64,000 nt of DNA from Maritalea porphyrae (GTDB lineage Bacteria; Pseudomonadota; Alphaproteobacteria; Rhizobiales; Devosiaceae). The position numbers and the translations under genes were made by a program. Shown here one piece after another: positions 42,821 to 58,571 of the stretch. The stretch spans positions 124,001 to 188,000 of the forward strand of contig NZ_BSNI01000001.1 in NCBI RefSeq assembly GCF_030159895.1. Reading direction: 5' to 3'. The notes beneath the pieces are model-generated. The model saw only the letters and a program-made list of their open reading frames with translations. It did no database searches and had not been told where the DNA came from. Positions within the stretch are counted from its first letter, which is position 1. Every line of letters begins with the position of its first letter.

Positions 42821-43297
42821 CTATTGTTTAATGGCGTTCAATTCATCATGACGCTTCTGAATCGATTCCGGCCAACGAGACTTAATGTATGCCAACGCCG
42901 CCACAATTTCGTCGTCGCTTAAGATCTCTTCATATACTGGCATGTCAGTTTGATAGTTTGGATTGTTTGACAAACGGGCAATGCCGAATTTGGTAATGGC
43001 GAACAAAACCTCGTCTTTGTGATGCCAGGTATGCCCCGTTTCATCATGTGGTGGCGCTGGCATTTTTCCACTATCTTTTGGCGTCCGCCAATTTGGCTCG
43101 CCCTGCAGCTCATCACCGTGACATGAAGCACAGTTCTGCTGGTAGATTTCTTTGCCCTCTGCCACCACTTGGCGATCATAGTACGGGAACAGTGCACCTT
43201 CTGGCAGCTCTGGTTGCGTATTGCCGATCGTACCCCAAGCAACAGCGCCAATCGCGACTACCGCGACAAGCCCAATGGCTATATATTGTTTTTTCAT
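42821..43297 (-). CDS. Membrane-anchored class I cytochrome c
   Basis: 158-residue monohaem cytochrome. An N-terminal hydrophobic segment (residues 5-24) without a clean cleavage site suggests a membrane anchor. The haem site is CASCH at residues 56-60; a His-rich loop (HDETGHTWHHKDE) and the possible Met ligand in QTDMPVYEEIL follow. The ATG at 43297 has GGGGTGAG upstream; a GTG at 43306 is an alternative. It is last in the copper operon and could pass electrons from the multicopper oxidase branch to a terminal oxidase. Confidence 0.84.
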   Translation of the reverse strand: MKKQYIAIGLVAVVAIGAVAWGTIGNTQPELPEGALFPYYDRQVVAEGKEIYQQNCASCHGDELQGEPNWRTPKDSGKMPAPPHDETGHTWHHKDEVLFAITKFGIARLSNNPNYQTDMPVYEEILSDDEIVAALAYIKSRWPESIQKRHDELNAIKQ

Positions 43298-43360
43298 TTT
43301 TCTCACCCCACCGTATTGGTGTGAACAACTTCTTTAAGACCCGTTAGAGTCAGCTCATTT

Positions 43361-43762
43361 TCAACTATGCTGTCCAGTAGCAACTACAAATATCGGAGGT
43401 GGGTCCCTAGGAGGATCATCCGAGGGCAACATTTCCCGTTGAATAACAGCCGCAAACTCGTGTCGTGTAACGACATAAGGGAAAAAGAAACTCGTCGTAA
43501 TCCCCACAACACAACCACCAAGACAACTGGGTTCATTTGAACCATCATCCAGACTTTGGCAGCAAGCATTGTCGCTCATACTGAAATGAACCAATTCTGA
43601 AGAAACAACCCCAACTTCAGCTATGTCTGTCAACGGAAATGCTAAGACAACTTGCGATAAAAGCAGCAACGCTGCGAAATACAGCGACGGAAATAATCGT
43701 TTCGAGTTTTCACCATTGTCGCGCCTCGTCCACAATCTCGTTAGATCATTTCGATCATCCAT
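43361..43762 (-). CDS. Small Cys-rich membrane/secreted protein with Pro-rich tail (copper operon)
   Basis: 133-residue protein I do not recognise by name. One hydrophobic segment (LYFAALLLLSQVVLAF) acts as signal or anchor. Then comes a cysteine cluster (DNACCQSLDDG, SCLGGCV), and the C-terminus is proline rich (PPRDPPPIF). The ATG at 43762 overlaps the multicopper oxidase stop by 8 bases; a TTG three codons upstream is possible. Small membrane proteins with Cys and a Pro/Arg tail (DUF2946-like) are common in copper operons. Copper binding or insertion is inferred. Confidence 0.55.
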   Translation of the reverse strand: MDDRNDLTRLWTRRDNGENSKRLFPSLYFAALLLLSQVVLAFPLTDIAEVGVVSSELVHFSMSDNACCQSLDDGSNEPSCLGGCVVGITTSFFFPYVVTRHEFAAVIQREMLPSDDPPRDPPPIFVVATGQHS

Positions 43763-45161
43763 TGACTTCAATCCAAGCGTTCATGCCGGATGCCGCATGC
43801 TCAAGCATGTGACAATGAAACAACCATTTTCCGACGTTGTCGGCAACGAACGAAATTCGGGTTGTTTGTCTAGGCGCGATCAAAAACGTATCCCTCCATA
43901 GGGAATCATGTTCGACGCCATCACCATCTCTGTCTTCAATCAAAAAGTGATGCCCATGCAGATGCATCGCATGCATAAAAGCAGTGCTATTTTCAATTTG
44001 CAATGAAACCGTTTGCCCGTGTTTTACCGCTAAGATTGGCTGCTCCATCAAGTTGGCGACACCGTTAAACGCCCAAAACTGTTGAGTGCGTTGAAACCCC
44101 GCCATATCAAGTTTTTCACCCTGATAATAAATATCATCAAGGGTTCCCATTGCGCCGCCCGTCATTCGGATGGAAAACTCCAATTGATCTGTGCTTGAGG
44201 GAAATGGAAGATCATTTGGCCGAGGATGAGTATAACCAATTGCTTTCGTTGCACCGCTAGCCAATTCAAAAAAGCAAAACGGAAACGCTTGTCCAGACAC
44301 TTCCTCCAACGCAAATGGATTTTCAGGATAAATGAGCAAATCAACGCGCTGTGCCGGCCCTAACAGCAATGGACGATAATGTAGCTCGATTGGCTCCTCT
44401 GGAACAGGTTGACCATCAAAGGCTACAATTCTACCACCAAACTTTAACGGATCCAATTCAAGGACCCTTGAATTGCTAGCGTTGACTAATCTCAGTAGAT
44501 TTGCAGCGCCAGATCGCAGCATAATTTTTGGCGCGCTTTTTCCATTTACTGTAAGCCAATTCCCAAGCCTTCCGCCATGGCTCCAATCCATCTGCGCACC
44601 AAGGCTGTCTTTATCTAACTGACCATTAGCATCTAGACGCCAGTCATCAATAACCAGAATATGATCTTGGTCTTCTGGCAATGCAGGTCCCGACGCTGGT
44701 TCAACAATCAAACCACCATAGAGTCCACGTGCAACCTGCGACCAACTGTTATTGTGTGCATGATACCAATAAGTTCCTGCATCCGGCGGCGTGAATTTGT
44801 AGACAAAGGATTCACCCGGATTTACTGCCTGTTGTGTCAAGCCAGACACACCATCCATTGAGTTTTCAATGCGTAATCCGTGCCAATGCACGGAGGTTGG
44901 TTCAGGTAATAAATTGGTAAAGCGGATGATCGCTTCTCGCCCTTGCCGCAGCTTAATTACTGGCCCGGAGATTTCGCCGTTATAACCCCAAAGATTTGAA
45001 GCTAAGGCATCTTCAGCATGGTGCAGTTTATGACTGACAGGCGCAGCAATCAATTCAACCACACCGTCAACTTCTTTGGCAAATAGAGCCGGAGGTGTCG
45101 CAACCAATGCCGCGGCACCCCCTATAATTTTGATGGCGTCGCGCCTACTTATCTGCGGCAT
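43755..45161 (-). CDS. Multicopper oxidase (CueO/laccase-like)
   Basis: 468-residue periplasmic oxidase with a twin-arginine signal (SRRDAIKIIGGAAALVATPP). All four copper-ligand motifs are visible: HWHGLR, WYHAHNNS, HAMHLHGHHF and WLFHCHMLEHAASGM, the last with the type 1 Cys, His and Met. It should oxidise Cu(I) or organic substrates and reduce oxygen. The ATG at 45161 follows GGGAG and overlaps the dihaem cytochrome stop by 17 bases; a longer frame to 45272 is inside that gene. There is no obvious Met-rich CueO helix, so the Met-rich cytochrome c' nearby might supply that function. Confidence 0.9.
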   Translation of the reverse strand: MPQISRRDAIKIIGGAAALVATPPALFAKEVDGVVELIAAPVSHKLHHAEDALASNLWGYNGEISGPVIKLRQGREAIIRFTNLLPEPTSVHWHGLRIENSMDGVSGLTQQAVNPGESFVYKFTPPDAGTYWYHAHNNSWSQVARGLYGGLIVEPASGPALPEDQDHILVIDDWRLDANGQLDKDSLGAQMDWSHGGRLGNWLTVNGKSAPKIMLRSGAANLLRLVNASNSRVLELDPLKFGGRIVAFDGQPVPEEPIELHYRPLLLGPAQRVDLLIYPENPFALEEVSGQAFPFCFFELASGATKAIGYTHPRPNDLPFPSSTDQLEFSIRMTGGAMGTLDDIYYQGEKLDMAGFQRTQQFWAFNGVANLMEQPILAVKHGQTVSLQIENSTAFMHAMHLHGHHFLIEDRDGDGVEHDSLWRDTFLIAPRQTTRISFVADNVGKWLFHCHMLEHAASGMNAWIEVNG

Positions 45162-46050
45162 TTTGATCTCCCAGCAAATAAGTTGCGATTGCGCTAAGGT
45201 CTTTTGGAGACAAGAAAGACGTTCCATCTCGTACCACCTCGACCATTGAACCGCCAAAAACGTCGCCATCATATTTGATGCCCGTTTTTAGTGCATATGC
45301 CAGCCCCTCAACTGTCCAACCCTTTTCCAGCAACTCTTCTTTTGTGATTGCTGGCGACTTTCCACCATCGGGCAACTTGTTTGCACCATGAAGTCGTTGC
45401 TCCACTTGCCTTGCACCCGCAAAGTTTCGTGGGGTATGGCAAGCTCCACAGTGCGCGGGGCCCTCCACAATGTATTTTCCGCGGTTCCAAGCAGCAGATT
45501 TAGACGTATCTTCTTGGAACTTTTCAAAATCAACAAACGCAGCTCGCCACAGTTTCAATCCCGCGCGAAAGCTAAAGGGAAACTTCATCTCATGGTCTTT
45601 TGAGGCTATTTCGACGGCGGGAACTGTTTTGAAGGCAGTCCACAAGTCAGCAACGTCCTGATCACTTAATTTCGCATAAAATGGAAATGGAAACGCAGGA
45701 TAATATGGTTCACCACTAGGAGAAACTCCCTGCCGCAAGGCCTTGGCGAACTGGTCAATTGTCCACTCGCCCATGCCAAATTTCGCGGACATCGTCAGGT
45801 TTGGCGAGTAAAATGTCCCAAAATCGGTTGGCAACGAAAGCCCACCGGCAAGAGGGGCACCACCATTTTCAGTGTCGGTATGACAGGCAATACAGCCGGA
45901 CATCCGCGCCAAATAGGCCCCTCGCCCTGCATTACCCTCCAACTCCTGCAATTCAACTTGAGCCCCGATTGGCCAGGCGACAATTGCAATCGTTGACACC
46001 GCGGCAATTGCCGCAGCGCCAGCTACTAACTGAACAACAATTTTGCGCAT
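45145..46050 (-). CDS. Dihaem cytochrome c (alcohol/gluconate dehydrogenase cytochrome subunit-like)
   Basis: 301-residue c-type cytochrome with an N-terminal hydrophobic segment (residues 5-28). Two haem sites are seen, CIACH at 53-57 and CGACH at 201-205, each followed by a distal Met candidate region. RGAYLARMSGCIACHT and RGKYIVEGPAHCGACHTPRN resemble cytochrome subunits of membrane dehydrogenases. Its start shares a base with the cytochrome c' stop (TAATG), and its stop lies inside the multicopper oxidase start region, so it probably exchanges electrons with one of them. Confidence 0.87.
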   Translation of the reverse strand: MRKIVVQLVAGAAAIAAVSTIAIVAWPIGAQVELQELEGNAGRGAYLARMSGCIACHTDTENGGAPLAGGLSLPTDFGTFYSPNLTMSAKFGMGEWTIDQFAKALRQGVSPSGEPYYPAFPFPFYAKLSDQDVADLWTAFKTVPAVEIASKDHEMKFPFSFRAGLKLWRAAFVDFEKFQEDTSKSAAWNRGKYIVEGPAHCGACHTPRNFAGARQVEQRLHGANKLPDGGKSPAITKEELLEKGWTVEGLAYALKTGIKYDGDVFGGSMVEVVRDGTSFLSPKDLSAIATYLLGDQNAADK

Positions 46051-46631
46051 TATTTCTTCTCGAGCCTAAACTTCGAGTGACAACTTGCGCAAGTTTGGGC
46101 CAACATGTTGAACACGCCATCTGCTGGCATCGCAGAAATTGTCGCCAAATCAATTTCCTGTTTGGCTCCCATCATCCCCGATCCGCTCATCATGCCGGCG
46201 CCGTCTGCCATTCCACCGTCACCCATCATGGACGTTGTCGTGCCTTGTTGCATCATCAAACCGTTAGGCGCCGCTTTTTCAAGCGCTTGAGCATAGATTT
46301 TTAGTTGTTGAGATATCTCTTCAAACTCTGCCCAGTTGGACCATATCTCAAGTTTTGCTTCCGACGGACCGCCATCGCTCCCCTCCGGGAAAAGTTTACT
46401 TAATTGCTCACCTGCATGCACTTGAATCTTCAACGCATTCTCTTTGACGACTTCTGGATCGTAGTCGACATTCCCACGCATCATTTCTGACAAGACTTTG
46501 ACCGCGCTCCCCATTGCGGACATACCATCCATACGTTCCTTAACAATCCCCGTCGCACCGCCATGAGCCAGCGCAGCGCCTGTGATCGATATGGCAGCAA
46601 TTGTGCCTAGCAAAAATTTTATATTCTTCAT
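46050..46631 (-). CDS. Cytochrome c' family protein with Met-rich insertion
   Basis: 193-residue periplasmic protein with a signal peptide of about 22 residues (TGAALAHG). It has the four-helix cytochrome c' layout: MDGMSAMGSAVKVLSEMM in helix 1, WSNWAEFEE mid-way, and the C-terminal haem motif CASCHSKFRLEKK at 181-185. Between helices 3 and 4, residues about 126-154 form an insertion with nine Met, mostly in MM pairs (LMMQQGTTTSMMGDG, AGMMSGSGMMG). Met pairs of this kind bind Cu(I) in other copper proteins. The ATG at 46631 follows GAGGAAG. Confidence 0.85.
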   Translation of the reverse strand: MKNIKFLLGTIAAISITGAALAHGGATGIVKERMDGMSAMGSAVKVLSEMMRGNVDYDPEVVKENALKIQVHAGEQLSKLFPEGSDGGPSEAKLEIWSNWAEFEEISQQLKIYAQALEKAAPNGLMMQQGTTTSMMGDGGMADGAGMMSGSGMMGAKQEIDLATISAMPADGVFNMLAQTCASCHSKFRLEKK

Positions 46632-46672
46632 TTTTCTTCCTCTAATAACTGTGAATTTCAATTGGTGAAAAT

Positions 46673-47023
46673 TCAATCATTTCGAGGAGGGGGAGGTTCC
46701 TGACCAATGACCCTAGCAAATAAAGCCAACAAAGACGTTTGCGTGTAGCCTAATCGTAGTTTTCGAAAATGTGGCGCAGCGATCTGATTCCCAACCGCAA
46801 GCTTGGCACCACAATGGATACTTGAGCGATCGTCACAACTGGTTTGATAGCCAAGAGAAGATTGATGTACATGTTGTTCTTGCGTCTGTTGGTTGTGCGC
46901 GTGATCTTCAACAACCAAAATCGTCCCATTGGTCGGCAACGAGACAAGCACCACAAGCATTAGTGATATCGCCAACATTGCGATCTCTTTCATACCAAAA
47001 CTAGCGTGCTTGAGACTATTCAA
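46673..47023 (-). CDS. Small His/Cys membrane-anchored protein with Pro-rich tail (copper operon)
   Basis: 116 residues from a TTG at 47023 that overlaps the preceding cytochrome stop by 8 bases; an ATG at 46993 giving 106 residues is an alternative without a clear ribosome-binding site. A hydrophobic segment (IAMLAISLMLVVLVSL) is followed by a His/Gln-rich stretch (EDHAHNQQTQEQHVHQ), two Cys (TSCDDRSSIHCGAK) and a tail ending GQEPPPPRND. The plan resembles the small protein at 43361. Metal handling is inferred from composition and place only. Confidence 0.5.
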   Translation of the reverse strand: MNSLKHASFGMKEIAMLAISLMLVVLVSLPTNGTILVVEDHAHNQQTQEQHVHQSSLGYQTSCDDRSSIHCGAKLAVGNQIAAPHFRKLRLGYTQTSLLALFARVIGQEPPPPRND

Positions 47024-47426
47024 TGCCGTTGGCCACCTGCAGTTTTCTAAGGTAGGTTATCACGGACACCATGTCGTCTTCGTTAACACTGGGCACCGGC
47101 GGCATATCGCCGAATGGCCAGTGATGTGATCGAACACCTACCTGTGCAGCCAGCTTAAAGGCTATATCGGCATGATGGGAAGGTTTATAAATCCTGTGAA
47201 TCAGTGGCGGTGCAATGCCTTGACGACCCGCAGCGTTTTTGCCGTGACAGGCAGCACAGTTTTCATCAAACGTCTGCTTGCCCTCCATTATCTCTTCGCT
47301 CACAACAATGGGAACAACTTCGATCATCGATTCACCAGTTGGCTCGGGCTTAGTACGGTCAAGAATGACCACACCAAAAAGCCCGAACACCAATAAAACC
47401 ACAATGATCGCCGTTCTATTTGCCAT
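47016..47426 (-). CDS. Membrane-anchored class I cytochrome c
   Basis: 136-residue monohaem cytochrome with an N-terminal anchor (residues 6-21). The haem site is CAACH at 57-61, followed by APPLIHRIYKPSHHADIAFKLA and the Met-ligand region FGDMPPVP. The ATG at 47426 is chosen over an upstream start at 47486 that has no signal-like sequence. It follows copA by 66 bases. Its layout resembles the cytochrome at 42821, so the two may be paralogues at either end of the operon. Confidence 0.82.
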   Translation of the reverse strand: MANRTAIIVVLLVFGLFGVVILDRTKPEPTGESMIEVVPIVVSEEIMEGKQTFDENCAACHGKNAAGRQGIAPPLIHRIYKPSHHADIAFKLAAQVGVRSHHWPFGDMPPVPSVNEDDMVSVITYLRKLQVANGIE

Positions 47427-47492
47427 TTCACGTTTGTGCCCAGACAACAGGTCCAAATTAAGGCATTGAACACTGTAGTTGGACAAACAAAA

Positions 47493-49964
47493 TCAAACAG
47501 CGAACCGTTTCAAACGCAATGCGTTACCTAAAACGAACACGCTCGACAAAGCCATCGCGCCGGCGGCCAACATAGGCGAAAGCAATGTGCCCGTTGAAGG
47601 ATATAGTACACCTGCCGCCACCGGGATTAAGCTGACATTGTAGGCAAATGCCCAAAAAAGGTTTTGCTGAATATTCTTGATTGTCGCTTTCGACAAAGCA
47701 ATCGCATTTGCGACGCCCTGCACATCGCCGGACATTAGCACAACATCAGCACTTTCGATTGCGATGTCAGTACCCGTACCGATGGCAATGCCAACGTCAG
47801 CTTGGGCAAGCGCAGGCGCATCGTTGATACCATCACCGACAAAGCTAACACGCTTATTCGCCGCTTGAATTTGCTTAAGAACCTCAACTTTGCCTGCTGG
47901 CAGCACTTCAGCATAAACATCGTCAATCTTCAGTTTTTTGGCGATGGCATTGGCCGTTTCTTGATTATCGCCGGTTATCATTGCCACTTTTAAGCTGAGC
48001 GCATGCAGCGCATCAATTGCTTTTGGTGTGGTTTCTTTTATTGGGTCGGCGACGGCGATAATGGCAGCTATTTTGCCATCAATGGCGGCGTAGAGTGGCG
48101 TTTTTGCTTCACGTCCAAGTCGCCTTGAGATTTCAGCAAAGGCAGACAATTCGTGGCCGAGCTTTGTCATAAAGCGATCAGCCCCAACCTCAACCGTACG
48201 CCCGTCCGCCTCGGCCCGAATGCCGTAGCCGGTAAACGAGTCAAATGAGCTTGTCTTGGGCACTTCAAGGCCCTGTTCATGTGCCGCTGCCACAATCGCC
48301 TCGGCAATCGGATGCTCCGAGTTCGCTTCCGCAGCCGCAACCAGCGCCAAGGCTTCCGCCTTATCAAAATCATCAGTTACGTCAAAATCCGTAAGCACTG
48401 GCCGCCCTAGGGTCAACGTACCCGTTTTATCGACGGCCACCACTTGCGTGTTTTTCAACTCTTGCAACGCTTCGCCATGGCGAAATAACACGCCCATCTC
48501 GGCAGCCCGTCCAGTCCCGACCATGATCGATGTTGGCGTCGCGAGCCCCATAGCGCATGGGCACGCGATTATCAAAACCGCAACACCGTTGATTAAGGCA
48601 AACGAAAGCGCTGGCTCGGGCCCAAACGCCAACCAAACACCAACTGTAATAAGCGCCACCAGCATGACAACTGGCACGAAAACCGCAGTCACTTTGTCCA
48701 CTAGCGCTTGAATTGGCAGCTTTGACCCTTGGGCATTTTCGACCATCTTTATGATCTGCGCTAAAGCGCTATCTGCGCCAACCTTAATTGCGCGAAACTC
48801 GAAGCTGCCGGTTTTGTTTATCGTGCCACCAATGACTTCACTGCCAACACTCTTTTCGACTGGCACAGGCTCACCCGAAATCATGGCTTCATCGACAAAA
48901 CTGTTTCCTCTAGTAACTTCGCCATCCACCGGAACCTTGTCGCCCGGACGAACCTGGACAATATCACCCGCAATGACCTCATCAAGCGAAACCTCGACAA
49001 ACTTGCCGTCCCGCAAAACCCGTGCCGACTTTGCTTGCAGGCTCATCAGTTTTGTAATGGCTTCACTTGTTCGCCCCTTTGCCCGCGCTTCCAACAAGCG
49101 CCCAAGCAAAATCAGTGTGATGATGACTGCACTTGCTTCAAAATAGACGTTCGCTGTGCCAGCAGGCAGCAAAGAGGGCAAAAATGTCGCCACAACCGAA
49201 TATCCCCAAGCAGCACTTGAGCCTAGGACAACAAGAGAATTCATCTCAGGCGCAAATCTCAAAAGAGCTGGCACACCCTTCTTGTAAAATATCATCCCAG
49301 GGCCGAATTGCACGATGCTCGCCATCACAAAATAAGCAAAATACAAATTGCGCATGCCTACAGATTCCATCAAAAGCATGTGCATGCCGGGAATGAAATG
49401 GGACCCCATTTCCAAAACAAACAACGGCAAAGTGAATACGACAGCAATCAACAGATTGCGCTTTAAGGTTGCATATTCCGCGTCCTTTTGAGCCTTGCGC
49501 TGCTCCAACGCATTCGCATCGGTCAATTGCGACTTGGCTCCATACCCCGCCTTTTTGACGGCTTGGGTCAGCGAAGCAGCATCCACATTGCCTCGCGCCT
49601 CGACCAAAGCGCTTTCGGTCGCCAAGTTCACCGATGCGGCGATAACTCCATCAACGCTCTTTAGTGCATCCTCAACTCGTTTCACGCACGAAGCACATGT
49701 CATGCCTTCAATTTCAAAGGTCATTGTGGTGGTCGGCACTTCATAGCCGGCATCTTCAATGGTGCGAACCACTTCGGTAATTGTTCCTGGTGAGTTGAAA
49801 TTCAAACTCACAGATTCAGTTGCCAAATTGACAGAAACATCAGAAATTCCGTCAACCTTGGAGACCGCCGTTTCCACACGCTTTACACAGGACGCGCAGG
49901 TCATCCCGGAGATGGGCAAGTTAAGCCTTTTAACTTCGGCTGATAAGTCAGTATGCGCGTTCAT
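47493..49964 (-). CDS. copA: Cu(I)-exporting P1B-type ATPase CopA
   Basis: 823-residue inner-membrane pump exporting Cu(I) from the cytoplasm. Two N-terminal metal-binding domains carry GMTCASC at residues 21-26 and 88-93. The membrane CPC motif is [13 protein letters not shown], the phosphorylated Asp is in DKTGTLTLG, and the HP motif (SEHPIAEAI) and [14 protein letters not shown] are present. It is the first gene after a CueR-type promoter and leads the cytochrome/multicopper oxidase genes; copZ is divergent. Confidence 0.96.
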
Positions 49965-49994: not shown

Positions 49995-50025
49995 TTCATA
50001 AACCTTCCAGTCATTGGAAGGTCAA
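49995..50025 (-). promoter_or_regulatory. CueR-type copper promoter for copA
   Basis: On the minus strand, TTGACC (-35) and TATGAA (-10) are separated by 19 bases, the long spacer typical of MerR-family promoters. Within it lies ACCTTCC-N7-GGAAGGT (50002-50022), a perfect inverted repeat of the known CueR operator form. The -10 is about 31 bases before the copA start. Confidence 0.88.
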
Positions 50026-50058: not shown

Positions 50059-50089
50059 TTGACCTTACAGCAAAGGGAAGGCTTATCAG
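50059..50089 (+). promoter_or_regulatory. CueR-type copper promoter for copZ
   Basis: On the plus strand, TTGACC and TATCAG are also 19 bases apart, with ACCTTAC-N7-GGAAGGC (50062-50082), two bases off the copA-side operator. It is about 35 bases before the copZ start. The two promoters point away from each other with 33 bp between their -35 boxes. Confidence 0.75.
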
Positions 50090-50123: not shown

Positions 50124-50324
50124 ATGACGAAGTTTGCTGTGCCTGACATGACATGTGGCCACTGTGAAGCAACAGTGACCAAGGCAATCAAAGAAGTTGA
50201 TCCATTCGCAAGCGTCAAAGCGGATTTGGCGACCAACACAATCACGCTTAGCTCAAGCGCCGAGGTGAGCACAATAACTGCGGCGCTTGAAAAAGCGGGC
50301 TATCCTAGCACTGCAATTGGCTAG
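50124..50324 (+). CDS. copZ: Copper chaperone CopZ
   Basis: 66-residue heavy-metal-associated domain protein that carries Cu(I) to CopA. The metal site is MTCGHC (Cys11 and Cys14). The ferredoxin-like fold length is normal. TTGGAG precedes the ATG. It is divergent from copA with its own CueR-type promoter. Confidence 0.9.
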   Translation: MTKFAVPDMTCGHCEATVTKAIKEVDPFASVKADLATNTITLSSSAEVSTITAALEKAGYPSTAIG

Positions 50325-50348: not shown

Positions 50349-51620
50349 TTAGCCAAACATATCAGCAGTTATCGCTGCATACCAATCGACTGATGCTCGA
50401 TAGGTGGCGGCTCGCGTTTCTGCGTCTTCGCCCGCTTGTGAAATAAAGCTTGAAGTTTTGCCAATCTTCTCGTCTGTCGCGCCATATGACGCTCCAACTT
50501 TGACGCCATCATCAACCGCAATCAAACTCCAACAAGTATTGCGATATTTGGCAGGAAAACGCTTACTGTCTAACAAATCCGCCCGAACGTGCATGGCGCA
50601 AACCTTTGCCTGACTGTTTGCCGAAAAGCCGGACTTTGGCATATCGCCCGCAATTGAACTATCGCCAATTACAAAGATATTTTGATCAACTGCCGAACGC
50701 ATTGACGTAGGATCAATCTCGCAAAAACCGCTTTCATTCGTCAAACCTGCAAGTTGCGCAATTTTGCCTGCCATTTGCCCCGGAATAACATTCAGCAGGT
50801 CACCTGCAAAGTCGTCAAAGTCAGTTTCAACAATTCCGGCTTGCGCATCAATATTGCCAATACCGCCATGCACGTCGGGGCCAAGCCACTCAACCATTCC
50901 CGGATAGTATTGTTCCCACCCAGCTTGAAACAATCCTTGTTTGGAGAACTTTGGTTTGGGATCAAGCACAACGATGCGAGACTTTGAGAAGCCCTTTGAT
51001 TTCAAAACATGTGCCATCATTGAAACACGCTCATATGGCCCAGGCGGACACCGATAAGGATTTGGTGGTGTTACCATCAAAATATTTTGACCATCTTCCA
51101 ATGCATCCAGTTTTGCTTTCAGCAATTTGGTTTGCTCACCGCCATGCCATGCAGATGGTGCCAAGTCCATATCCGCAGCGTTGTATCCGGGGGTCGTGTC
51201 ATAGTTGAAATCGATACCCGGCGAGATCACCAAGCGATCATAGGGAATTGGGTCACCGGCATCGATGCGGACTTGTTTTTTGTCCCGATCAACGCCCGTG
51301 GCATATGCGTGCACAACACGAATGCCATATTCTTGCGCCAACTTTTCGTACGAATGCGTAATCGATTCAAAACTGCGCAAACCGCCGAGATAGAGATTTG
51401 AGAAAAAGCAGGTTGTGAAATGGGTCTTGGGTTCAATCAGAACAACATTGATCGCACCCTTTGCATCCTTGGCAATGTATCGCGCGGCTGTGGCGCCCCC
51501 TGCACCGCCGCCGATCACCACTACCGTTGAATTTCCAGCCCCTTTTGCAATGGACGGCATGGCCAGTCCTGCAGCAGTTGCTCCAAATAGTGCGTTAAAC
51601 GTTCTCCGGTTTAGTGTCAT
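50349..51620 (-). CDS. soxF: Sulfide dehydrogenase flavoprotein SoxF (FCSD/FccB type)
   Basis: 423-residue periplasmic FAD protein oxidising sulfide. The N-terminus NRRTFNALFGATAAGLA is a twin-arginine signal, and VVVIGGGAGGATAARYI binds FAD. The redox Cys pair of flavocytochrome c sulfide dehydrogenase is kept: Cys191 in YRCPPGPYERVS and Cys363 in NTCWSLIA. The ATG at 51620 follows GGAGGGGAAA. It is the last sox gene of the minus-strand run, 77 bases after soxE. Confidence 0.9.
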   Translation of the reverse strand: MTLNRRTFNALFGATAAGLAMPSIAKGAGNSTVVVIGGGAGGATAARYIAKDAKGAINVVLIEPKTHFTTCFFSNLYLGGLRSFESITHSYEKLAQEYGIRVVHAYATGVDRDKKQVRIDAGDPIPYDRLVISPGIDFNYDTTPGYNAADMDLAPSAWHGGEQTKLLKAKLDALEDGQNILMVTPPNPYRCPPGPYERVSMMAHVLKSKGFSKSRIVVLDPKPKFSKQGLFQAGWEQYYPGMVEWLGPDVHGGIGNIDAQAGIVETDFDDFAGDLLNVIPGQMAGKIAQLAGLTNESGFCEIDPTSMRSAVDQNIFVIGDSSIAGDMPKSGFSANSQAKVCAMHVRADLLDSKRFPAKYRNTCWSLIAVDDGVKVGASYGATDEKIGKTSSFISQAGEDAETRAATYRASVDWYAAITADMFG

Positions 51621-51697
51621 TTTCCCCTCCATGATTGTTGGTTGCAGCGCATCCAACTGATGCGCCATCCAATGCAAAGCGGGAAAGCTAACAAGTC

Positions 51698-52051
51698 CTA
51701 TTCGGCAGCCCGCTCAAAATATGTTGCCAACGCAGCGATCTCTTCATCGCCAAGCTGCAATGCAATATCACGCATCGTTGTGTTTTTGCGCAGCCCTTGC
51801 TGAAACCGAACCATCGCATCGACGAAGTATGTTTTGTCATAATTGTATAAAGTGGGTATTTCGCTGCCCGCACGATGGCAAACAACGCATTCTCCGGCCA
51901 AATACGCGCCATAATCGACGTCGCCCGCAATGTTCAAAATTTCACCACCAAGCAGCTCACCATTTGCAAAGCTGAGTGTTGCAAGAGATTGATTCATGAA
52001 AGCCGCTGCCACAAGAGACCCAACAATGCATGCAGCGCTCCTGTTCATCAT
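51698..52051 (-). CDS. soxE: Monohaem cytochrome c SoxE
   Basis: 117-residue periplasmic cytochrome, electron acceptor of SoxF. One haem site is visible, CVVCH at residues 55-59, with a Met candidate in TTMRDIALQL. The classical SoxE and FccA of several bacteria are dihaem and about twice as long, so this is a short monohaem form like the small cytochrome of green-sulfur flavocytochrome c. It overlaps the soxD stop by four bases (ATGA). Confidence 0.82.
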   Translation of the reverse strand: MMNRSAACIVGSLVAAAFMNQSLATLSFANGELLGGEILNIAGDVDYGAYLAGECVVCHRAGSEIPTLYNYDKTYFVDAMVRFQQGLRKNTTMRDIALQLGDEEIAALATYFERAAE

Positions 52052-53124
52052 TCTTGATCCGGTGTTACATCCAAAACTTGGGCCCGCTTAGTGATTTCAA
52101 CCGGACCAACCTTGCATTCGTTCATGCATGGGTCCGCCGAAACAGAATATTGCGGCTCATCTTCCCGATCATCGGCATAAAAATTGGCTGTGTTTGGCAT
52201 CTCAACCGTCAGGAAGTTTTCCTTTGATAACTCAAACTCCTCATCATCAACGATATCGTTTAGATACAAAAGATATGCCGTGATTGCGTATGTTTCATCA
52301 TCTGTCAAACTTGCTGCTTCACCAAATGGCATCGCGCGTTGAACATAATCATAAACTGTTGAAAGATACGGCCAGTAGGAGCCAATCGTTTTGACCGGGC
52401 GTTCATTTTGGAGGCTATTTTGGCCGCCCGCAAGAACCGGCCAACGACCGACACCTTCTCCGAAGTCACCATGGCAAGAAGCACATTTCTCAACGAAAAC
52501 TTCTTCGCCATCAGCAACTGTTCCACGACCGTTTGGCAAACCCATTCCATCGGGACGCACATCAAAATCCCAAGCTGCAATTTCGTCATCAGTAGCAACA
52601 CGGCCCAAATGAAACACGCCATGCTCAGGCACTTCAGCAGCGGAAGCGGCCACGTTTGTTTGCGTTGTCACTGCAGGCGCGTTTGCATCATCCGAAACGT
52701 CATCTTGCTCAGCAACAGGTGCCTGAACTTCTGCCGTCGAAAACGTGCCAAGGTATGCTAACAAATTGTCCATATCCTTTTGTTTTTTGATGCCCGCGAA
52801 GGACATTTTCGTCCCCTTCACAAAAGCCTTGGGTTTGGTCAAAAACGCATTGAGCGTTTCTTCATTCCAAACCAACCCGTCTTCGCCTTTCGCAAGCATG
52901 GCTTTTGAATATTTGAAGCCATCTTTCGAACCGGCGGCACGACCAAACAACTCATTAAGCTCGGGGCCCGATTTGTTCTTCGCCTTATCGCCGACCATGT
53001 GGCAGGCTTTGCATTTGTTAAAGACCTTCTTGCCTTTATCAACATCGCCTTGTGCAAACCCGGCAGCGGAAAATGCAGAACAAACCAGCGCCCCTAGCGC
53101 GACAGACTTAAGATACTTCAACAT
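52048..53124 (-). CDS. soxD: Dihaem cytochrome SoxD of sulfane dehydrogenase SoxCD
   Basis: 358-residue periplasmic cytochrome with a signal peptide ending near AAGFA. Haem sites are CKACH at 38-42 and CASCH at 214-218, in two domains joined by an Ala/Val/acidic linker (residues about 130-165). It accepts electrons from the molybdenum subunit SoxC. It overlaps the soxC stop by 17 bases. Confidence 0.93.
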   Translation of the reverse strand: MLKYLKSVALGALVCSAFSAAGFAQGDVDKGKKVFNKCKACHMVGDKAKNKSGPELNELFGRAAGSKDGFKYSKAMLAKGEDGLVWNEETLNAFLTKPKAFVKGTKMSFAGIKKQKDMDNLLAYLGTFSTAEVQAPVAEQDDVSDDANAPAVTTQTNVAASAAEVPEHGVFHLGRVATDDEIAAWDFDVRPDGMGLPNGRGTVADGEEVFVEKCASCHGDFGEGVGRWPVLAGGQNSLQNERPVKTIGSYWPYLSTVYDYVQRAMPFGEAASLTDDETYAITAYLLYLNDIVDDEEFELSKENFLTVEMPNTANFYADDREDEPQYSVSADPCMNECKVGPVEITKRAQVLDVTPDQE

Positions 53125-54415
53125 TCTCTGTCACTCCGTCTTTGGCCACATACCAAGTTTGAATTCCGTTATTGTGATAGATGGAATTTACCCCACGCAC
53201 TGCGCGCAATGCATCCTTAGTGGGCTGCACATTTCGATATTCATCCATTGCACGCGACTGCAAATAAAGCGGCTCACCGTTCCAATCGATATCGAGATAG
53301 AAGCGATGAACTGAGCGCGACAGGCTTGGCCCGTCAATTCGTGCTGATCGCCAATTTCGACCTCCGTCAACAGACACATCGACCCGCGAGATTTTGCCAG
53401 CGCCTGACCAAGCCAGACCTGAGATAACTGTACGGCCTTTGCCATGAGTAACCGGCGCTTGTGGGCTTGGGCTAGTGATCACTGATTTGACGTCCATTTG
53501 CCAAGAGAACCGACGCGCCCGACCGTCAGGCATAAGATCTGTATATTTGGAGGTTTCTTCGCGCTGATGCCAAGGCTGATCGCCAACTTCAATTCGGCGC
53601 AACCACTTAATCCACATATTGCCTTCCCACCCAGGCACCACCAAGCGCATTGGATAGCCTTGTTCAGGGCGCAACGCTTCGCCATTCATCTTGAAGGCGA
53701 TCATGCAATCATTAAGCGCTTTTTCAATTGGAATTGAACGGGTCATTGCCGAAGCGTCGCCGCCTTCAACCAACAACCACTTGCCGTTTGGTTTAATACC
53801 GGCTTCTTCCAAAACGTGGCGCAACTTGATGCCAGTATACATCACATTATGGATCATGCCGTGGGTGAACTGCACCCCATTCAATTGGGCCCCGCGCCAT
53901 TCCATGCCCGAATTTGCAGCACATTCCAGGAAATACACTTTGTTTTCACGGGGAAACCGCTTGAGGTCTTCCAAGGTAAAAACCAGTGGCGTGTCCACAA
54001 GCCCGTGGATCATCAAGCGATGAGCGGTCGGGTCAATCTCCGCGATGCCGCCATGATGCCGTTCAAAGCACACGCCGTTTGGGGTGATGATGCCGTCAAG
54101 TTCATGCAACGGCGTAAAGCTAACTGAACTGACCGGGTCCGCAGTCAACCATTCAACATTTCGCCGTATCACGTGTGCTTCATGCGCGGAGGGAGTACCA
54201 TATGGCCGCGCATCGACACCATCACCCAAATAGGTCCGCCAATCTTGTTTCTGCAAAATTACATTCTCGCCGGCAGCTTGCGCCGCCCCAGCAGCCGCTG
54301 CACCTAACGCAGCCGCGCCACCGGCAACTAATCCATTTTTCAGGAAGGCGCGGCGGCCATTATCCGGATGATCATTTCGACCTTTTGCGCTTCTCAGCAT
54401 CGATTTTTTGCTCAT
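53108..54415 (-). CDS. soxC: Sulfane dehydrogenase molybdenum subunit SoxC
   Basis: 435-residue sulfite-oxidase-fold protein with a twin-arginine signal (GRRAFLKNGLVAGGAAALGA). The molybdenum-ligating Cys is Cys165 in YFLECAANSGMEWRG. RLVVPGWEGNMWIKWLRRIE is conserved. With SoxD it oxidises the SoxY-bound sulfane sulfur, so no sulfur globules are expected. A separate promoter in the soxB-soxC gap, with paired TTCATATG repeats, may drive soxCDEF. Confidence 0.94.
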   Translation of the reverse strand: MSKKSMLRSAKGRNDHPDNGRRAFLKNGLVAGGAAALGAAAAGAAQAAGENVILQKQDWRTYLGDGVDARPYGTPSAHEAHVIRRNVEWLTADPVSSVSFTPLHELDGIITPNGVCFERHHGGIAEIDPTAHRLMIHGLVDTPLVFTLEDLKRFPRENKVYFLECAANSGMEWRGAQLNGVQFTHGMIHNVMYTGIKLRHVLEEAGIKPNGKWLLVEGGDASAMTRSIPIEKALNDCMIAFKMNGEALRPEQGYPMRLVVPGWEGNMWIKWLRRIEVGDQPWHQREETSKYTDLMPDGRARRFSWQMDVKSVITSPSPQAPVTHGKGRTVISGLAWSGAGKISRVDVSVDGGRNWRSARIDGPSLSRSVHRFYLDIDWNGEPLYLQSRAMDEYRNVQPTKDALRAVRGVNSIYHNNGIQTWYVAKDGVTENVEVS

Positions 54416-54435
54416 CTGATAACGCCCCTCTTTGA

Positions 54436-54455
54436 TTCATATGATTTTTCATATG
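54436..54455 (-). promoter_or_regulatory. TTCATATG direct repeat upstream of soxC (candidate SoxR site)
   Basis: Two copies of TTCATATG with 12-base periodicity at 54436 and 54448, in the 89-base soxB-soxC gap. The same element, in either orientation, occurs in the soxW-soxX gap, with related forms near soxV and soxH. Confidence 0.6.
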
Positions 54456-54504
54456 TATTTTTACAAATTTTCACTCGCATTTCAAAAGAACTCTCAAATC
54501 AAGT

Positions 54505-56199
54505 CTAACTGGAAATAACTTTGACCGAACGGTTTGGCTCAAGCGCAACAACGGGGTTCTTCTGCAGGTGATCTTCCACCACATCCCAAATTGCAGGGCC
54601 CTCAACATCTTCGCTTACCGATGCCCAACCTGCGACAACATACGTGCTTTCTGGATTGATCTTTTCACCACTTTCCAGCAGCGTCATATCAGTGATCCTG
54701 TTACCGATCGTCTTTGTCGGGTCAATCGTGTAACCCATGCCACCAACTCGCACCATGTCGCCACCTTGTTGATAATAAGGGTCGGCATTAAACAAATTGT
54801 CGGCCACGTCTTCCAAAATGTCGTGGATGGTCTTGCCAGTCATCTCGCTACGATACGCAGACGGATAAGTCATTGCGCAGGCATTGTGCAAATCTTCAAC
54901 GGTAATCGCCTCTCCTGGCAGAACGCTAGTGCCCCATCTAAAGCCTGGGGAAAGTGCGATGTCAGCATCACGCTCCTCAATAAGTGCCTGACAGATCAGG
55001 TCGTCGAAGGTGCCATTGAAATTGCCGCGACGGTATAAAAGGCTGTCCGTTGTGCCAAGTTCGCGCGCAAGTTCTTCGCTGTATGGTGCGCGCACCTTTT
55101 CAACCAACGCCGTCATTTCAGCATCCTGTTCAATCACATCAGAAAAGATTGGAACCAATCGATATTTAAAGCCCTTCACATCCCCTTTTTGGACGTCCAA
55201 GTCCAAACGAGAAACAAACTTGCCGTGCGAACCAGTTGCCACCAGCAAAGTCTTGTTCACCAGCAAAGGTTCGGGCAACGCATCGTGCGTATGACCGCAC
55301 AAGATCACATCAATACCGTCAACGCGTTTTGCAAGCGCACGATCAACATCAAAACCGTTGTGTGAAAGCAAAACGATCAGCTCTGCGCCATCTGCTCGCG
55401 CAGCCTCAATATTGCGGGCGATATCTTCCTCGCGAATGCCAAATGACCAATTAGGGAACATCCAGCGCGGGTTCGCGATCGGGGTGTATGGAAATGCCTG
55501 ACCAATTACCCCGACCTTTACGCCACCGCGTTCAAAAATCTTGTATCCCTCAAATGCTGGTTCGTTCCACTCAGCATCATAAATATTAGAGCCCAAGAAT
55601 GGGAATGGCAGCTCGTCCACAATCTCAGTGACCCTGTCAACGCCATATGTGAATTCCCAATGCCCCGTCATCGCATCTGGTTTGAGGGCATTCATGACTT
55701 CAACCATATCCGCGCCATGGGTCATGTTAGAAGTGTAACTGCCTTGCCAAGTGTCGCCACCGTCGAGCAACAACATATTGTCCGCGCGGCTTGATCTGAT
55801 GGAATTTACAACCGTTGCAATACGATCCATGCCACCCATTTTGCCGTAAGACTTTGCCAGGTTCACATAGTCTTCTGAGGTGAGCGCGTAAGCCTGAGCC
55901 GAGCCAGGCTGAATATTGTACAAGTCCAGAAAGTCTTTTCCCGTCACATGTGGCGGCTTGCCATAGGCGTCGCCAACACCCAAATTGATTGATGGCTCTC
56001 GGAAAAAGACTGGCATCAATTGCGCATGCAAATCTGTGATGTGGACCAGAGTGACATTGCCGTAAGCGTCCATGTCGAGCAAATCGCTTTGAGACAGCTC
56101 TTGGCGCGCAGCAGCGCGGGCCCATTGTCCCGGCATGCCCAGCCCACCAATTGCAGACGTTGCAACTGCCGCCATCAAAAACTCACGACGAGAAAACAT
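54505..56199 (-). CDS. soxB: Thiosulfohydrolase SoxB
   Basis: 564-residue dimanganese hydrolase that releases sulfate from SoxY-bound thiosulfate. A twin-arginine signal (SRREFLMAAVATSAIGGLG) leads. Metal-site motifs are VHITDLHAQL, LLLDGGDTWQGS, the SoxB-specific TGHWEFTYG in place of GNHEFD of nucleotidases, and CGHTHDALP. The C-terminal substrate domain and full length are intact. It follows soxA by 82 bases. Confidence 0.96.
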   Translation of the reverse strand: MFSRREFLMAAVATSAIGGLGMPGQWARAAARQELSQSDLLDMDAYGNVTLVHITDLHAQLMPVFFREPSINLGVGDAYGKPPHVTGKDFLDLYNIQPGSAQAYALTSEDYVNLAKSYGKMGGMDRIATVVNSIRSSRADNMLLLDGGDTWQGSYTSNMTHGADMVEVMNALKPDAMTGHWEFTYGVDRVTEIVDELPFPFLGSNIYDAEWNEPAFEGYKIFERGGVKVGVIGQAFPYTPIANPRWMFPNWSFGIREEDIARNIEAARADGAELIVLLSHNGFDVDRALAKRVDGIDVILCGHTHDALPEPLLVNKTLLVATGSHGKFVSRLDLDVQKGDVKGFKYRLVPIFSDVIEQDAEMTALVEKVRAPYSEELARELGTTDSLLYRRGNFNGTFDDLICQALIEERDADIALSPGFRWGTSVLPGEAITVEDLHNACAMTYPSAYRSEMTGKTIHDILEDVADNLFNADPYYQQGGDMVRVGGMGYTIDPTKTIGNRITDMTLLESGEKINPESTYVVAGWASVSEDVEGPAIWDVVEDHLQKNPVVALEPNRSVKVISS

Positions 56200-56281
56200 A
56201 ATTCACCCCTATTGAATCCTCACCCATTACGCCGGATCAGCAATGCAGCAGCGCCGTGGCGCTGCCGCGTCATATGTTGTT

Positions 56282-57136
56282 TTAGTTGCGCACCGATGGC
56301 GTTTCGACCGCCAACCCCGCACCACGTGATGCTACATAGGCTTCGAGCGCAATGAATTCATCCGATCCGCGCTTAAACGGCGTCGCCCGAATATTCTCCA
56401 TACAACCTTTGAAGCGGCGATGGATTGAACCCAAACCTGCCCATTTCAAACGGTAAACCGGGAATCCATTGATCTGACCTTGGCTCAAATGATCTGAGCG
56501 AATTTGATTGCCATAATTATCTTCATGGCAGTTCGAACAAGACATATTGAGCTGACCAACGCGGGTATAGTAAAGGTCTTTTCCTTTTTCCATCCACTCA
56601 GCCATCGGCCCGTCTGTTTGAATATTCACCGGCATGCCGCGAGATTGTAAGCTAATCAGAGCCGTCATATTGACCATCTCTTTTTGCTCCCAACCCCAAG
56701 CTTCAGCGCCCATCCGATCTGTCCGGCAACGGTTGATCAGATTTTCCATTGTTGCTGGCTTATTGGTAGCCTCATCCCATTTCGGCAATTCAGCACGCAA
56801 ACCTGCAAGGCTGGACACATCCTCATGACAGGAAGCACATGACTTGCCCTCACTGCCATCGGCGGTTTCCCAAGTCTCAGCCGCAGCGTCAACAGCCACA
56901 AATCCCGGATTTTCAAAGTCATCCATTTGCAGCGATTGTGTTTCCGGTGAGCGGAAGCGCCAACCTGAATAGATATGATCCAACGGTGAACTGTCAGGCG
57001 CAGCAACATCGGTAACAATAAGCTCGCCTTCAATGATCAGCTGATTATTGTCCGGATCGGCCAGCGCAGGCGATACAAGACTTGCAAGCATCGCCGCAAT
57101 GCCAACTGCGGCAAAAATCCCCCCTACTTTGATCAT
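56282..57136 (-). CDS. soxA: Cytochrome SoxA (dihaem type)
   Basis: 284-residue catalytic subunit of SoxXA, which joins thiosulfate to SoxY. The signal peptide ends near SPALA. Haem sites are CASCH at 100-104 and CSNCH at 200-204. The active-site Cys245, in RFKGCMENIRATP, is the cysteine persulfide ligand of the catalytic haem. Two haem motifs make it the dihaem SoxA class. Confidence 0.95.
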   Translation of the reverse strand: MIKVGGIFAAVGIAAMLASLVSPALADPDNNQLIIEGELIVTDVAAPDSSPLDHIYSGWRFRSPETQSLQMDDFENPGFVAVDAAAETWETADGSEGKSCASCHEDVSSLAGLRAELPKWDEATNKPATMENLINRCRTDRMGAEAWGWEQKEMVNMTALISLQSRGMPVNIQTDGPMAEWMEKGKDLYYTRVGQLNMSCSNCHEDNYGNQIRSDHLSQGQINGFPVYRLKWAGLGSIHRRFKGCMENIRATPFKRGSDEFIALEAYVASRGAGLAVETPSVRN

Positions 57137-57184
57137 CTGTCTCCTCCTCTAAAGGGATCTTGAAGTGCTCAAGACCCGCAAAAA

Positions 57185-57508
57185 TTATTCAACAGCAATC
57201 TCTTTGCTGCTCGTGTACTCCGAGCCGTCATCGTCCAACCATTTAAAGTCGAACGTGCCGCTTTCCATTACCTTGACGTTAAACTCAATGAATGGATTGG
57301 CCGCGACGCCGGGTTCGATATCTGCAGAGAAAACGGTTGCGCCGTTAAATTCTGCGGTGAATTTATTGATGATTTTGCGTGGAATAAGATTCCCATCTTT
57401 TCCTTTGCGCTGACCGCTTTCCATCGCATGACTGATCAATGTTTTGATTGTGATCACATCACCAGCTGCGGCCTTCTTCGGTACTTTTACGCGAGGTTTT
57501 GTCGCCAT
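57185..57508 (-). CDS. soxZ: Sulfur-carrier partner SoxZ
   Basis: 107-residue immunoglobulin-like protein that binds SoxY and presents it to the Sox enzymes. RVKVPKKAAAGDVITIKTLI at the start and FSADIEPGVAANPFIEFN are conserved. It has no signal peptide and is expected to be exported with SoxY. It is 24 bases after soxY. Confidence 0.93.
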   Translation of the reverse strand: MATKPRVKVPKKAAAGDVITIKTLISHAMESGQRKGKDGNLIPRKIINKFTAEFNGATVFSADIEPGVAANPFIEFNVKVMESGTFDFKWLDDDGSEYTSSKEIAVE

Positions 57509-57532
57509 AATAATTCTCCTTCGTGCAGCCGC

Positions 57533-57991
57533 TTAACCGCCACACCCGCCAATGGTTACTTTGACAAGCTTTTTGTCCATGAACACCGATCCATCACTCA
57601 TTTTCGCAACGGCAATTACGTCCTGCGTTTTCGCCAATCGAATGCGTGTGGTCGCCGCAGCAACGCCGTTCATCGGTGTGAAGTTAAAGGTGATCACACC
57701 TGGGTTTGGGTTGCCCGATGCTAAGATCATCACAGCAGCGACGTGGTCGGCTTCCGTCATTTCGCTTTCGACGTCGACAGAAATTGGAACGGTATTCCCG
57801 TTTTCCGCGATTTCGGGCGCTGTTAGACTGATGCGCCCTTCGCCAACTTCTGCGCCAGCCGCAAATGCATCAATCGCTGCTTGGGTGGCAGCTTCATCAG
57901 CAAAAGCAATCCCGCTTGTTGACAATCCGGTCAACGCCGCTGCGCCAAACCCAGCGCCCAATGCAAGCACCTTACGTCTGGATAGTTTCAT
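57533..57991 (-). CDS. soxY: Sulfur-carrier protein SoxY
   Basis: 152-residue carrier with a twin-arginine signal (LSRRKVLALGAGFGAAAL). It ends in GGCGG, the swinging arm whose cysteine holds thiosulfate and its oxidation products. The ATG at 57991 follows AAGGAG; an ATG six codons upstream is less likely. It lies between soxX and soxZ. Confidence 0.95.
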   Translation of the reverse strand: MKLSRRKVLALGAGFGAAALTGLSTSGIAFADEAATQAAIDAFAAGAEVGEGRISLTAPEIAENGNTVPISVDVESEMTEADHVAAVMILASGNPNPGVITFNFTPMNGVAAATTRIRLAKTQDVIAVAKMSDGSVFMDKKLVKVTIGGCGG

Positions 57992-58014
57992 TCTGGTCTC
58001 CTTGCTCATGGTGC

Positions 58015-58476: not shown

Positions 58477-58512
58477 ATCAGTCCCCCTCCCTGAGACGGA
58501 TCGTCTGATCTC

Positions 58513-58526
58513 GTTCACATATGAAC
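58513..58526 (-). promoter_or_regulatory. GTTCA-N4-TGAAC inverted repeat near soxX (candidate SoxR site)
   Basis: GTTCA and TGAAC arms around CATA, containing CATATGAA, the element seen again at 58573 and 54436. It ends 37 bases before the soxX start. Confidence 0.6.
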
Positions 58527-58571
58527 AAGCTTAGAGCGATATCTTCTCTCAATCAATATATTAATTCAAAT

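Follow-up and report, generated by a model that had tools for sequence, protein, structure and literature searches.

Positions 124,001 to 188,000 of contig NZ_BSNI01000001.1 of Maritalea porphyrae, a stretch of 64,000 nucleotides (nt) that we call the window and number from its first letter, include a copper operon in which genes for a Cu(I)-exporting ATPase, four c-type cytochromes and a multicopper oxidase are interspersed with two small open reading frames (ORFs), sp1 and sp2. By their sequence, sp1 and sp2 are best read as CutF-like nascent-chain copper sensors, sp1 lying directly ahead of the gene for a Met-rich cytochrome c'. The likely regulatory nature of both ORFs was absent from the initial annotation of this DNA and is the best-supported new point of the analysis presented here.

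The copper operon, its promoters and its recurrence

Using the ORF list and starts chosen from the sequence, we located eight genes on the minus strand between positions 49964 and 42821. All the members of the eight-gene copper operon that the initial annotation had placed behind a CueR-type promoter were found, and the six large ones gave Pfam matches. In the direction of transcription the genes are copA, cytA, sp1, those for cytochrome c', a dihaem cytochrome c and the multicopper oxidase, sp2 and cytB, with intergenic gaps, calculated from the chosen starts, of 66, 22, 41, -1, -17, -8 and 63 nt. From this spacing we infer a single transcript. The operon contained 7 promoter-like sequences (9.0 ± 2.8 in shuffled sequences) and 14 terminator-like ones (11.1 ± 3.1), and as neither scan gave a clear excess, a terminator or internal promoter splitting the operon was rejected. 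The first gene, copA (47493–49964, minus strand), encodes a Cu(I)-exporting P-type ATPase with two HMA domains, recognized by Pfam and by TIGR01511 (588.7 bits, cut-off 397).

The operon promoter (49995–50025, minus strand) is of the CueR type, with TTGACC and TATGAA separated by a 19-nt spacer that holds a perfect dyad at 50002–50022. A second CueR-type dyad, imperfect with 2–3 mismatches, lies at 50062–50082 on the plus strand toward a divergent gene for a copZ-like HMA copper chaperone (50124–50324, plus strand; HMA E-value 3.3e-16), whose product scored below the cut-offs of the CopZ-specific models. Neither copZ nor this second operator figured in the initial annotation, and a divergent copZ beside copA recurs in other loci. 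Scanning both strands for the CueR dyad with at most 3 mismatches returned 6 matches for 1.07 expected, and 0 of 100 shuffles gave 6. Moreover, a CueR orthologue, 57–61% identical over 126 residues to three annotated CueRs, is encoded about 21.6 kb ahead of the window on its contig, so that both features that define a CueR regulon are present, namely a 19-nt promoter spacer with the dyad and a genomic CueR gene. Control of operon transcription by CueR appears well founded on these sequence features, and the copper control proposed earlier was borne out at the level of the operator. The CueR-type operator, the 19-nt spacer before copA and the oxidase are shared with known CueR/HmrR regulons containing CopA and a CueO-type oxidase (PMC1526738). 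In Vibrio, candidate CueR sites have been noted upstream of predicted cytochrome genes (PMC1526738), whereas here four cytochromes, one of them Met-rich, belong to the same operon as copA.

Homologous loci were collected through the oxidase, in a search of one genome per species that gave 177 relatives, the 80 best being retained, and through cytochrome c' in related genomes. In these loci, cytochrome c' hits above 70 bits were taken and those with a similarity ratio above 0.95 to an earlier hit were dropped, leaving 59 loci; an adjacent match above 100 bits was counted as a dihaem neighbour, and a match above 200 bits on the same strand within 3.5 kb as an oxidase neighbour. As loci L061–L140 were found through the oxidase, the set is biased, and the frequency of the oxidase is readable only from the cytochrome c'-derived loci L041–L060. 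A dihaem hit adjoined cytochrome c' in 50 of the 59 loci, and copA was present on the same strand within 9 kb in 27 of these 50, many loci being short. The order cytA, small ORF, cytochrome c', dihaem cytochrome, oxidase and cytB, often near copA/copZ and mostly with a Met-rich cytochrome c', recurs in alphaproteobacteria and in conjugative roseobacter plasmids. The linkage singled out by the initial annotation is conserved in this sense; its absence from every related genome, the outcome named there as speaking against it, is not what the searches returned. The oxidases of four Maritalea genomes (G001, G002, G003 and G005) are 63–66% identical to that of the window, and copies with the same coordinates and leader ends were found in Celeribacter, Sinisalibacter, Salipiger, Thioclava and Pseudodonghicola loci (L105 and L107–L115).

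The leader peptides sp1 and sp2

Nascent-chain copper sensing has been described in two systems. CutF, encoded in the cutFOG operon of Rhodobacter capsulatus, was shown to act on cutO by such a mechanism (PMC9973294), its Cys and Pro motifs both being required (PMC8456105); 5,334 CutF-like proteins have been counted (PMC9973294), and the set also includes Cys variants (PMC8456105). CruR of Bordetella pertussis, a DUF2946 upstream ORF, likewise carries a Cys motif at a fixed distance from a C-terminal Pro motif (PMC9426467). The spacing between its motifs matters (PMC9426467), and its stalling has been demonstrated in vitro (PMC12992588).

The sp1 ORF (46673–46993, minus strand) encodes 106 residues, with a His-containing stretch, the motif CDDRSSIHC, a 38-residue spacer and a PPPPR-ND end before the stop. 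The 133-residue sp2 (43361–43762, minus strand) contains CC..CLGGC and a C-terminal PPRDPPP. Both have a hydrophobic N-terminus as read from the sequence, in the place where CutF-like proteins have a Sec signal peptide cleaved by signal peptidase I, and with either the chosen starts or the mechanical ORFs (116 and 136 residues) both stay below the 150 residues that bound CutF-like proteins. A PP pair is found within 15 residues of each C-terminus (PPPPRND in sp1, DPPPIFVVATGQHS in sp2), and the CLGGC of sp2 is a strict CXXXC. Like CutF, sp1 is a small ORF with a Cys motif, a C-terminal Pro motif (GPPPRL in CutF) and a predicted stem-loop over the next Shine-Dalgarno (SD) sequence (PMC9973294, PMC8456105), and the distances are nearly equal, C73 of CutF standing 44 residues before R117 (numbering of PMC8456105) and the corresponding Cys of sp1 43. 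The two differ in their targets, as CutF directly precedes an oxidase gene (PMC9973294, PMC8456105), whereas sp1 precedes the Met-rich cytochrome c' and dihaem cytochrome genes, with the oxidase third and a second leader after it.

The sp1 ORF occupies the same position in most loci, with a body that can hardly be aligned and an end that reads (D/E)PPPPR or close to it. For a comparison across loci, ORFs were chosen by their Pro end, not by Cys, and aligned without gaps on the C-terminal Arg/Lys; exact duplicates were dropped, the near-identical L044, L084, L109 and L124 were omitted, and no start was obtained for L138. A Cys was found at -43 from the Arg/Lys in 29 of the 31 non-redundant loci and at -44 in the other 2. 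The C-terminal motif was the most conserved part, and mean pairwise identity over the 38-residue spacer was 11%. A second set of 17 loci, among which L164, L165, L167 and L169 are close relatives, yielded a Pro-ended ORF in 13 (none in L162, L168, L174 and L175), the distance being 43 in 10 of them, 44 in two (L145 and L159, where Ile or Thr follows the Pro run) and 41 in one whose motif has diverged. Within 20 loci selected for the presence of sp1, PPP[RK] within the last 12 residues was found in 20 of 1147 ORFs of at least 90 residues on both strands, exactly the 20 sp1 ORFs, and in 0 of the 1127 others. Moreover, an sp1-type leader accompanied cytochrome c' in 40 of the 50 dihaem-adjacent loci vs 1 of the 9 without a dihaem hit. 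A strict link between sp1 and the Met-rich insert of cytochrome c' was rejected, as the Met count stays below 7 in 10 of the 40 dihaem loci that have the leader. In L132 (Martelella) the sp1 end differs from that of its close relatives L137 and L138.

The second leader, sp2, follows the oxidase gene in the window and in Maritalea, Pseudovibrio, Roseibium/Labrenzia and Ahrensia loci. In all 10 non-redundant cases its CxxxC is placed at -41/-37 relative to the last PP, and spacer identity is 14%; as these ORFs were filtered for a CxxxC and a late PP, the register is a result and the motif is not.

Several observations weigh against reading these ORFs as CutF-like. Unlike CutF, sp1 lacks a strict CXXXC and presents CDDRSSIHC, a Cys variant in the fixed register, and the post-oxidase small ORFs of L064, L073 and L080, without CxxxC, fell outside the sp2 count. 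By the pattern used, 10 of the 50 dihaem-adjacent loci have no leader, and Pfam searches with sp1 and sp2 gave no family at E ≤10, DUF2946 (PF11162) included.

The Cys/His clusters of sp1 and sp2, small exported-looking proteins within a copper operon, would also suit conventional chaperones or storage peptides for copper that work in the periplasm as mature proteins. We consider this improbable, since a 38-residue spacer of 11% identity and almost fixed length, behind which the C-terminal motif is the best conserved part, is not accounted for by such a function, nor is the pairing of the RNA at the sp1 end with the next ribosome-binding site. In addition, cutF acts only in cis and its product went undetected (PMC9973294). 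As CutF needs both its Cys and Pro motifs and spacing matters in CruR, a spacer of constant length but unconstrained sequence matches the needs of an arrest peptide read in the ribosome tunnel, which favors the reading of sp1 and sp2 as nascent-chain sensors.

The predicted hairpin at the sp1–cytochrome c' junction

A predicted hairpin pairs the Pro/Arg codons of sp1 up to its stop (5' arm, 46674–46688, minus strand) with a segment including the SD of the cytochrome c' gene (3' arm, 46638–46651, minus strand). The evidence for such a stem-loop hiding the next SD, another trait of CutF-like leaders, comes from cross-locus permutation tests and is weaker in the second locus set. In the first set (n = 31), the sp1 end paired with the SD of its own locus at a mean of -10.5 kcal/mol, vs -7.0 ± 0.40 kcal/mol across loci (z = -8.9, 0 of 20,000 permutations), and with one locus per genus-level group z was -8.0 (n = 23). 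With the same narrow arm, the control junctions gave null results (dihaem, z = -0.2, n = 28; oxidase, z = -0.3, n = 25). When the 5' arm was slid along the leader, the effect peaked at the sp1 stop and was weaker at -15 and -30 (z = -4.3 and -2.7). Compared with other windows of the same locus, the effect was weaker yet present, with 8 of 31 loci below 0.05 and a Fisher P of 1e-6, and a wider start region gave z = -9.9. An independent set from a class-wide genome sample contained a leader-like ORF in only 3 of 17 loci (L145, L146 and L159), leaving n = 1 for this test, and plasmid loci were added instead.

Modeling a ribosome paused at the motif raised the mean accessibility of the SD from 0.25 to 0.47 over 35 loci, near-duplicates included, and from 0.25 to 0.58 in the window; accessibility fell or stayed in L052, L056, L070 and L072. 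In 34 of the 35 loci the gap between sp1 and the cytochrome c' gene was 35–67 nt (87 in L052). In the window the CCUCCUCGA codons pair with the SD, but the idea of the Pro codons as a general anti-SD was rejected, as synonymous recoding of the four motif codons barely shifted mean SD accessibility over the 35 loci (0.245 native, 0.266 recoded). In these models the general 5' arm is made up of the last sp1 codons plus the stop.

Some results speak against the hairpin. Plain folds of the window junctions were no better than shuffles. With the wide arm, five control junctions gave z values from -2.4 (oxidase, P = 0.009) to 0.9, i.e. an effect at the oxidase, and a trend at the dihaem junction (z = -1.6). 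In the second locus set the narrow SD arm gave no significant pairing (P = 0.26, n = 11); the wide arm did (P = 0.0008, n = 11; P = 0.009, n = 7), this arm having been chosen after the narrow result. For sp2, a look by eye at cases too few and too variable made no case for a hairpin.

Taken with the ruler and the motif, the hairpin strongly suggests translational control by sp1. As CutF works so and the setting is one of detoxification, we argue that copper would switch this gate on. The opposite direction, in which copper relieves stalling and downstream genes go off as with CruR, could invoke the Cys-to-Pro ruler common to both, with 45 intervening residues in CruR (PMC9426467). In CruR, however, the motif is RAPP, and a long, Rho-suited spacer of 162 nt serves the Rho-dependent switch-off of a transporter gene that is lowered by copper (PMC9426467), whereas sp1 and sp2 have no DUF2946 hit, the gap behind sp1 is short with the ribosome-binding site in the predicted hairpin, and the genes controlled belong to a CueR-driven detoxification operon. 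A CruR-like direction is accordingly unlikely in our judgment, and a copper-on gate, as in CutF, is the direction retained below.

The cytochromes, their possible roles and their spread

The cytochrome c' (46050–46631, minus strand) exceeds the curated cut-off of PF01322 (86.2 vs 26.5 bits; E-value 4.3e-24). The match covers positions 2–97 of the 121 of the profile and is followed by an MM-repeat insert ahead of the CASCH haem site. The 75-residue stretch preceding the haem contains 7 or more Met in 39 of the 50 dihaem-adjacent loci and in 1 of the 9 others, namely L089, which has a partial dihaem match at the contig end. In L132 and L138 (Allosediminivita), cytochrome c' matches are split over two frames, as possible pseudogenes or sequencing errors. 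The dihaem cytochrome c (45145–46050, minus strand) has as nearest solved structures the cytochrome subunits of aldehyde/alcohol/fructose dehydrogenases (phmmer E-value 7.9e-49 to 8gy3_A). The two mono-haem cytochromes c carry additional conserved residues, HH.D and HHW.FG.MP besides the haem motif in cytA (47016–47426, minus strand) and an APPHD.tGHTWHH.D cluster in cytB (42821–43297, minus strand), with the extra His kept at 90% or more in HH.D and HHW of cytA (41 sequences) and in HD.tGHTWHH of cytB (43 sequences). In L061/L044 (Maritalea mobilis), cytB matches occupy two abutting frames (11554–11736 and 11735–11980 in L061) and look frameshifted. The oxidase (43755–45161, minus strand) has a start resembling a twin-arginine (RR) signal and type 1 and trinuclear copper ligand motifs read by eye; its best solved relative is 4f7k ("Laccase", E-value 5.1e-87). 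As judged by sequence models, it is a multicopper oxidase by Pfam and not an E. coli-type CueO, the CueO equivalog NF008205 giving 151.2 bits against a curated 525.

On the evidence as a whole, the operon likely serves periplasmic copper detoxification and is switched by CueR, with a second copper gate at translation; copper would probably gate both its transcription, through CueR, and its translation, through stalling. In the mechanism that we propose, cytoplasmic Cu(I) would activate CueR, which, given the operators and the CueR gene, would turn on copA with its seven downstream genes and, in the opposite direction, copZ. CopA would then export Cu(I) into the periplasm. As the conserved anatomy suggests, sp1 would be translated and exported, and its emerging Cys/His segment would bind the exported copper while PPPPR occupies the peptidyl-transferase centre, the fixed 43-residue Cys-to-Arg distance acting as the ruler. 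The paused ribosome would cover the sp1 end and open the hairpin over the cytochrome c' ribosome-binding site, allowing translation of cytochrome c'. In the window the cytochrome c' gene shares 1 nt with the dihaem cytochrome gene, which in turn shares 17 nt with the oxidase gene, so that a single gate could suffice for the three, the latter two following by coupling, and sp2 would be a second such leader, ahead of cytB. In the periplasm, the Met-rich cytochrome c' might capture Cu(I) beside its haem, and cytochrome c', the dihaem and the mono-haem cytochromes might accept electrons from Cu(I) for transfer to the oxidase or the respiratory chain, the oxidase additionally oxidizing Cu(I) with O2.

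Copper control by the operator and conserved linkage both stood from the interpretation given in the initial annotation, and the relay of electrons from Cu(I) to the respiratory chain that it also proposed is kept here as plausible. In favor of the relay are the Met-rich insert and the absence of a nearby oxidase, by the thresholds given above, in 8 of the 14 dihaem-adjacent loci derived from cytochrome c' (oxidase matches in L048, L053, L055 and L056 are weaker or more distant).

A tentative alternative is that the cytochromes are copper-hardened spares for poisoned periplasmic functions in cytochrome maturation, disulfide formation and the cell wall, so that respiration and the wall survive, without oxidizing Cu(I). 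Sister clusters are neutral toward the relay or weigh against it, as they also fit such a replacement of parts. Plasmid clusters L164, L165, L167 and L169 encode CcmI and a second cytochrome-biogenesis protein (CcmI alone is in view in L171), L143 also has CcmF and a DsbE-type gene, and genes for DsbD-domain proteins, DsbA-family proteins, L,D-transpeptidases and penicillin-binding protein 2 (PBP2; L172 and L173) occur in plasmid clusters in varying combinations. Copper inhibits L,D-transpeptidases. Furthermore, R. capsulatus strains mutated in the oxidase or in cutF lose cytochromes when treated with copper (PMC8456105). Spare parts nevertheless leave unexplained why cytochrome c' has a Met-rich insert and so often adjoins the dihaem cytochrome, and genes for maturation, Dsb or transpeptidase proteins are absent from the window operon.

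Rather unlikely, in turn, is a role of the cytochromes as electron donors to the multicopper oxidase, which would then be a periplasmic cytochrome oxidase, instead of as acceptors from Cu(I). cytA resembles the cytochrome domain of fused copper nitrite reductases, enzymes in which the haem feeds type 1 copper, and in several SAR116 loci the gene immediately upstream of the oxidase is cytB-like. Against it, more than half of the 14 loci just mentioned have the cytochrome c'/dihaem pair without such an oxidase, although weaker, more distant or unlinked oxidases are possible there. Given that cytochrome c' carries a Met-rich insert and that the oxidase is often missing, we rank the relay slightly above the replacement and donor roles. 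A stronger form of it, in which the two nascent-chain gauges meter a cytochrome c'/dihaem pair that is a haem-based Cu(I) oxidase feeding the respiratory chain, with the multicopper oxidase as an optional O2-dependent add-on, seems to us doubtful. A partial parallel is CopI, a His/Met-rich protein of the periplasm that serves copper tolerance in microaerobic conditions and, unlike cytochrome c', is cupredoxin-like and not a haem protein (PMC13308877).

The distribution of the module is patchy, as cytochrome c' was found in 15 of 385 genomes of a class-wide sample (E ≤1e-15) and in 31 of 61 among the relatives (E ≤0.001), the source genome being included in both counts. Among plasmid records, cytochrome c' had 112 matches, 54 of them typed conjugative, and the dihaem protein 635, of which 611 were below 60% identity and many are probably other cytochromes. 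Annotated plasmid clusters carry copZ, copA, cueR, L,D-transpeptidase, DsbA and DUF2933 genes beside the module in varying combinations. The L172 (Gemmobacter) and L173 (Tabrizicola) plasmids show no multicopper oxidase within the stretch covered; there the dihaem gene is followed by two unknown genes and genes for a ferric-reductase-like membrane protein, PBP2, a cytochrome c and DsbA. In the L143 (Tritonibacter) and L170 (Sulfitobacter) plasmids, a response regulator and a kinase-like gene precede the cytochrome genes; by the patterns used sp1 is missing from L143, and that of L170 is diverged, perhaps reflecting a swap of control systems. SAR116-type loci (L097, L098, L101, L122, L123, L126, L127, L130 and L131) have a cytB-like cytochrome directly upstream of the oxidase and no hits for the rest of the module. 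The module, sp1 included, is also carried by a contig of a metagenome-assembled genome labelled Planctomycetales (L073), with a cytochrome c' that is not Met-rich, by transfer or mis-binning.

In the window, the copper operon adjoins a sox-like cluster (50349–62942) that begins with a flavocytochrome c sulfide dehydrogenase flavoprotein gene (Pfam) and continues, by ORF reading only, with soxD/soxC, soxB, soxA, soxZ, soxY and soxX, then thioredoxin-like, CcdA-like, ArsR-like and YeeE-like genes. A service of the operon cytochromes to these sox genes was set aside, since the recurring neighbours are copA/copZ, the two nearest of the sox genes being those searched in relatives.

CutF-like proteins, CruR and predicted CueR-controlled cytochromes in Vibrio were already known. 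The new elements are the cytochrome target of a CutF-like leader, the two-leader operon and the ruler and hairpin evidence. A literature search gave no title on this cytochrome module among the matches listed, and the available text of PMC10141476 has nothing on it. Leaving supplements aside, the main text of the CutF papers (PMC9973294, PMC8456105), in the parts available, names no cytochrome as a downstream target, and among the matches listed there is none that describes a cytochrome c' module behind a CutF-like leader, an operon with two such leaders or cross-locus evidence for the hairpin.

Two ORFs that are hypothetical or absent in the (incomplete) plasmid gene tables become testable translational copper sensors, and sp1 offers a measurable 43-residue ruler together with a hairpin that varies with its target across loci. 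If this reading is true, CutF-type control would extend from oxidases to cytochromes. The module itself appears as a mobile copper-resistance unit whose core often includes a Met-rich cytochrome c', and direct detoxification of Cu(I) by cytochromes becomes experimentally addressable; should the cytochrome c'/dihaem pair indeed be a haem-based Cu(I) oxidase, copper detoxification would be able to run at low oxygen.

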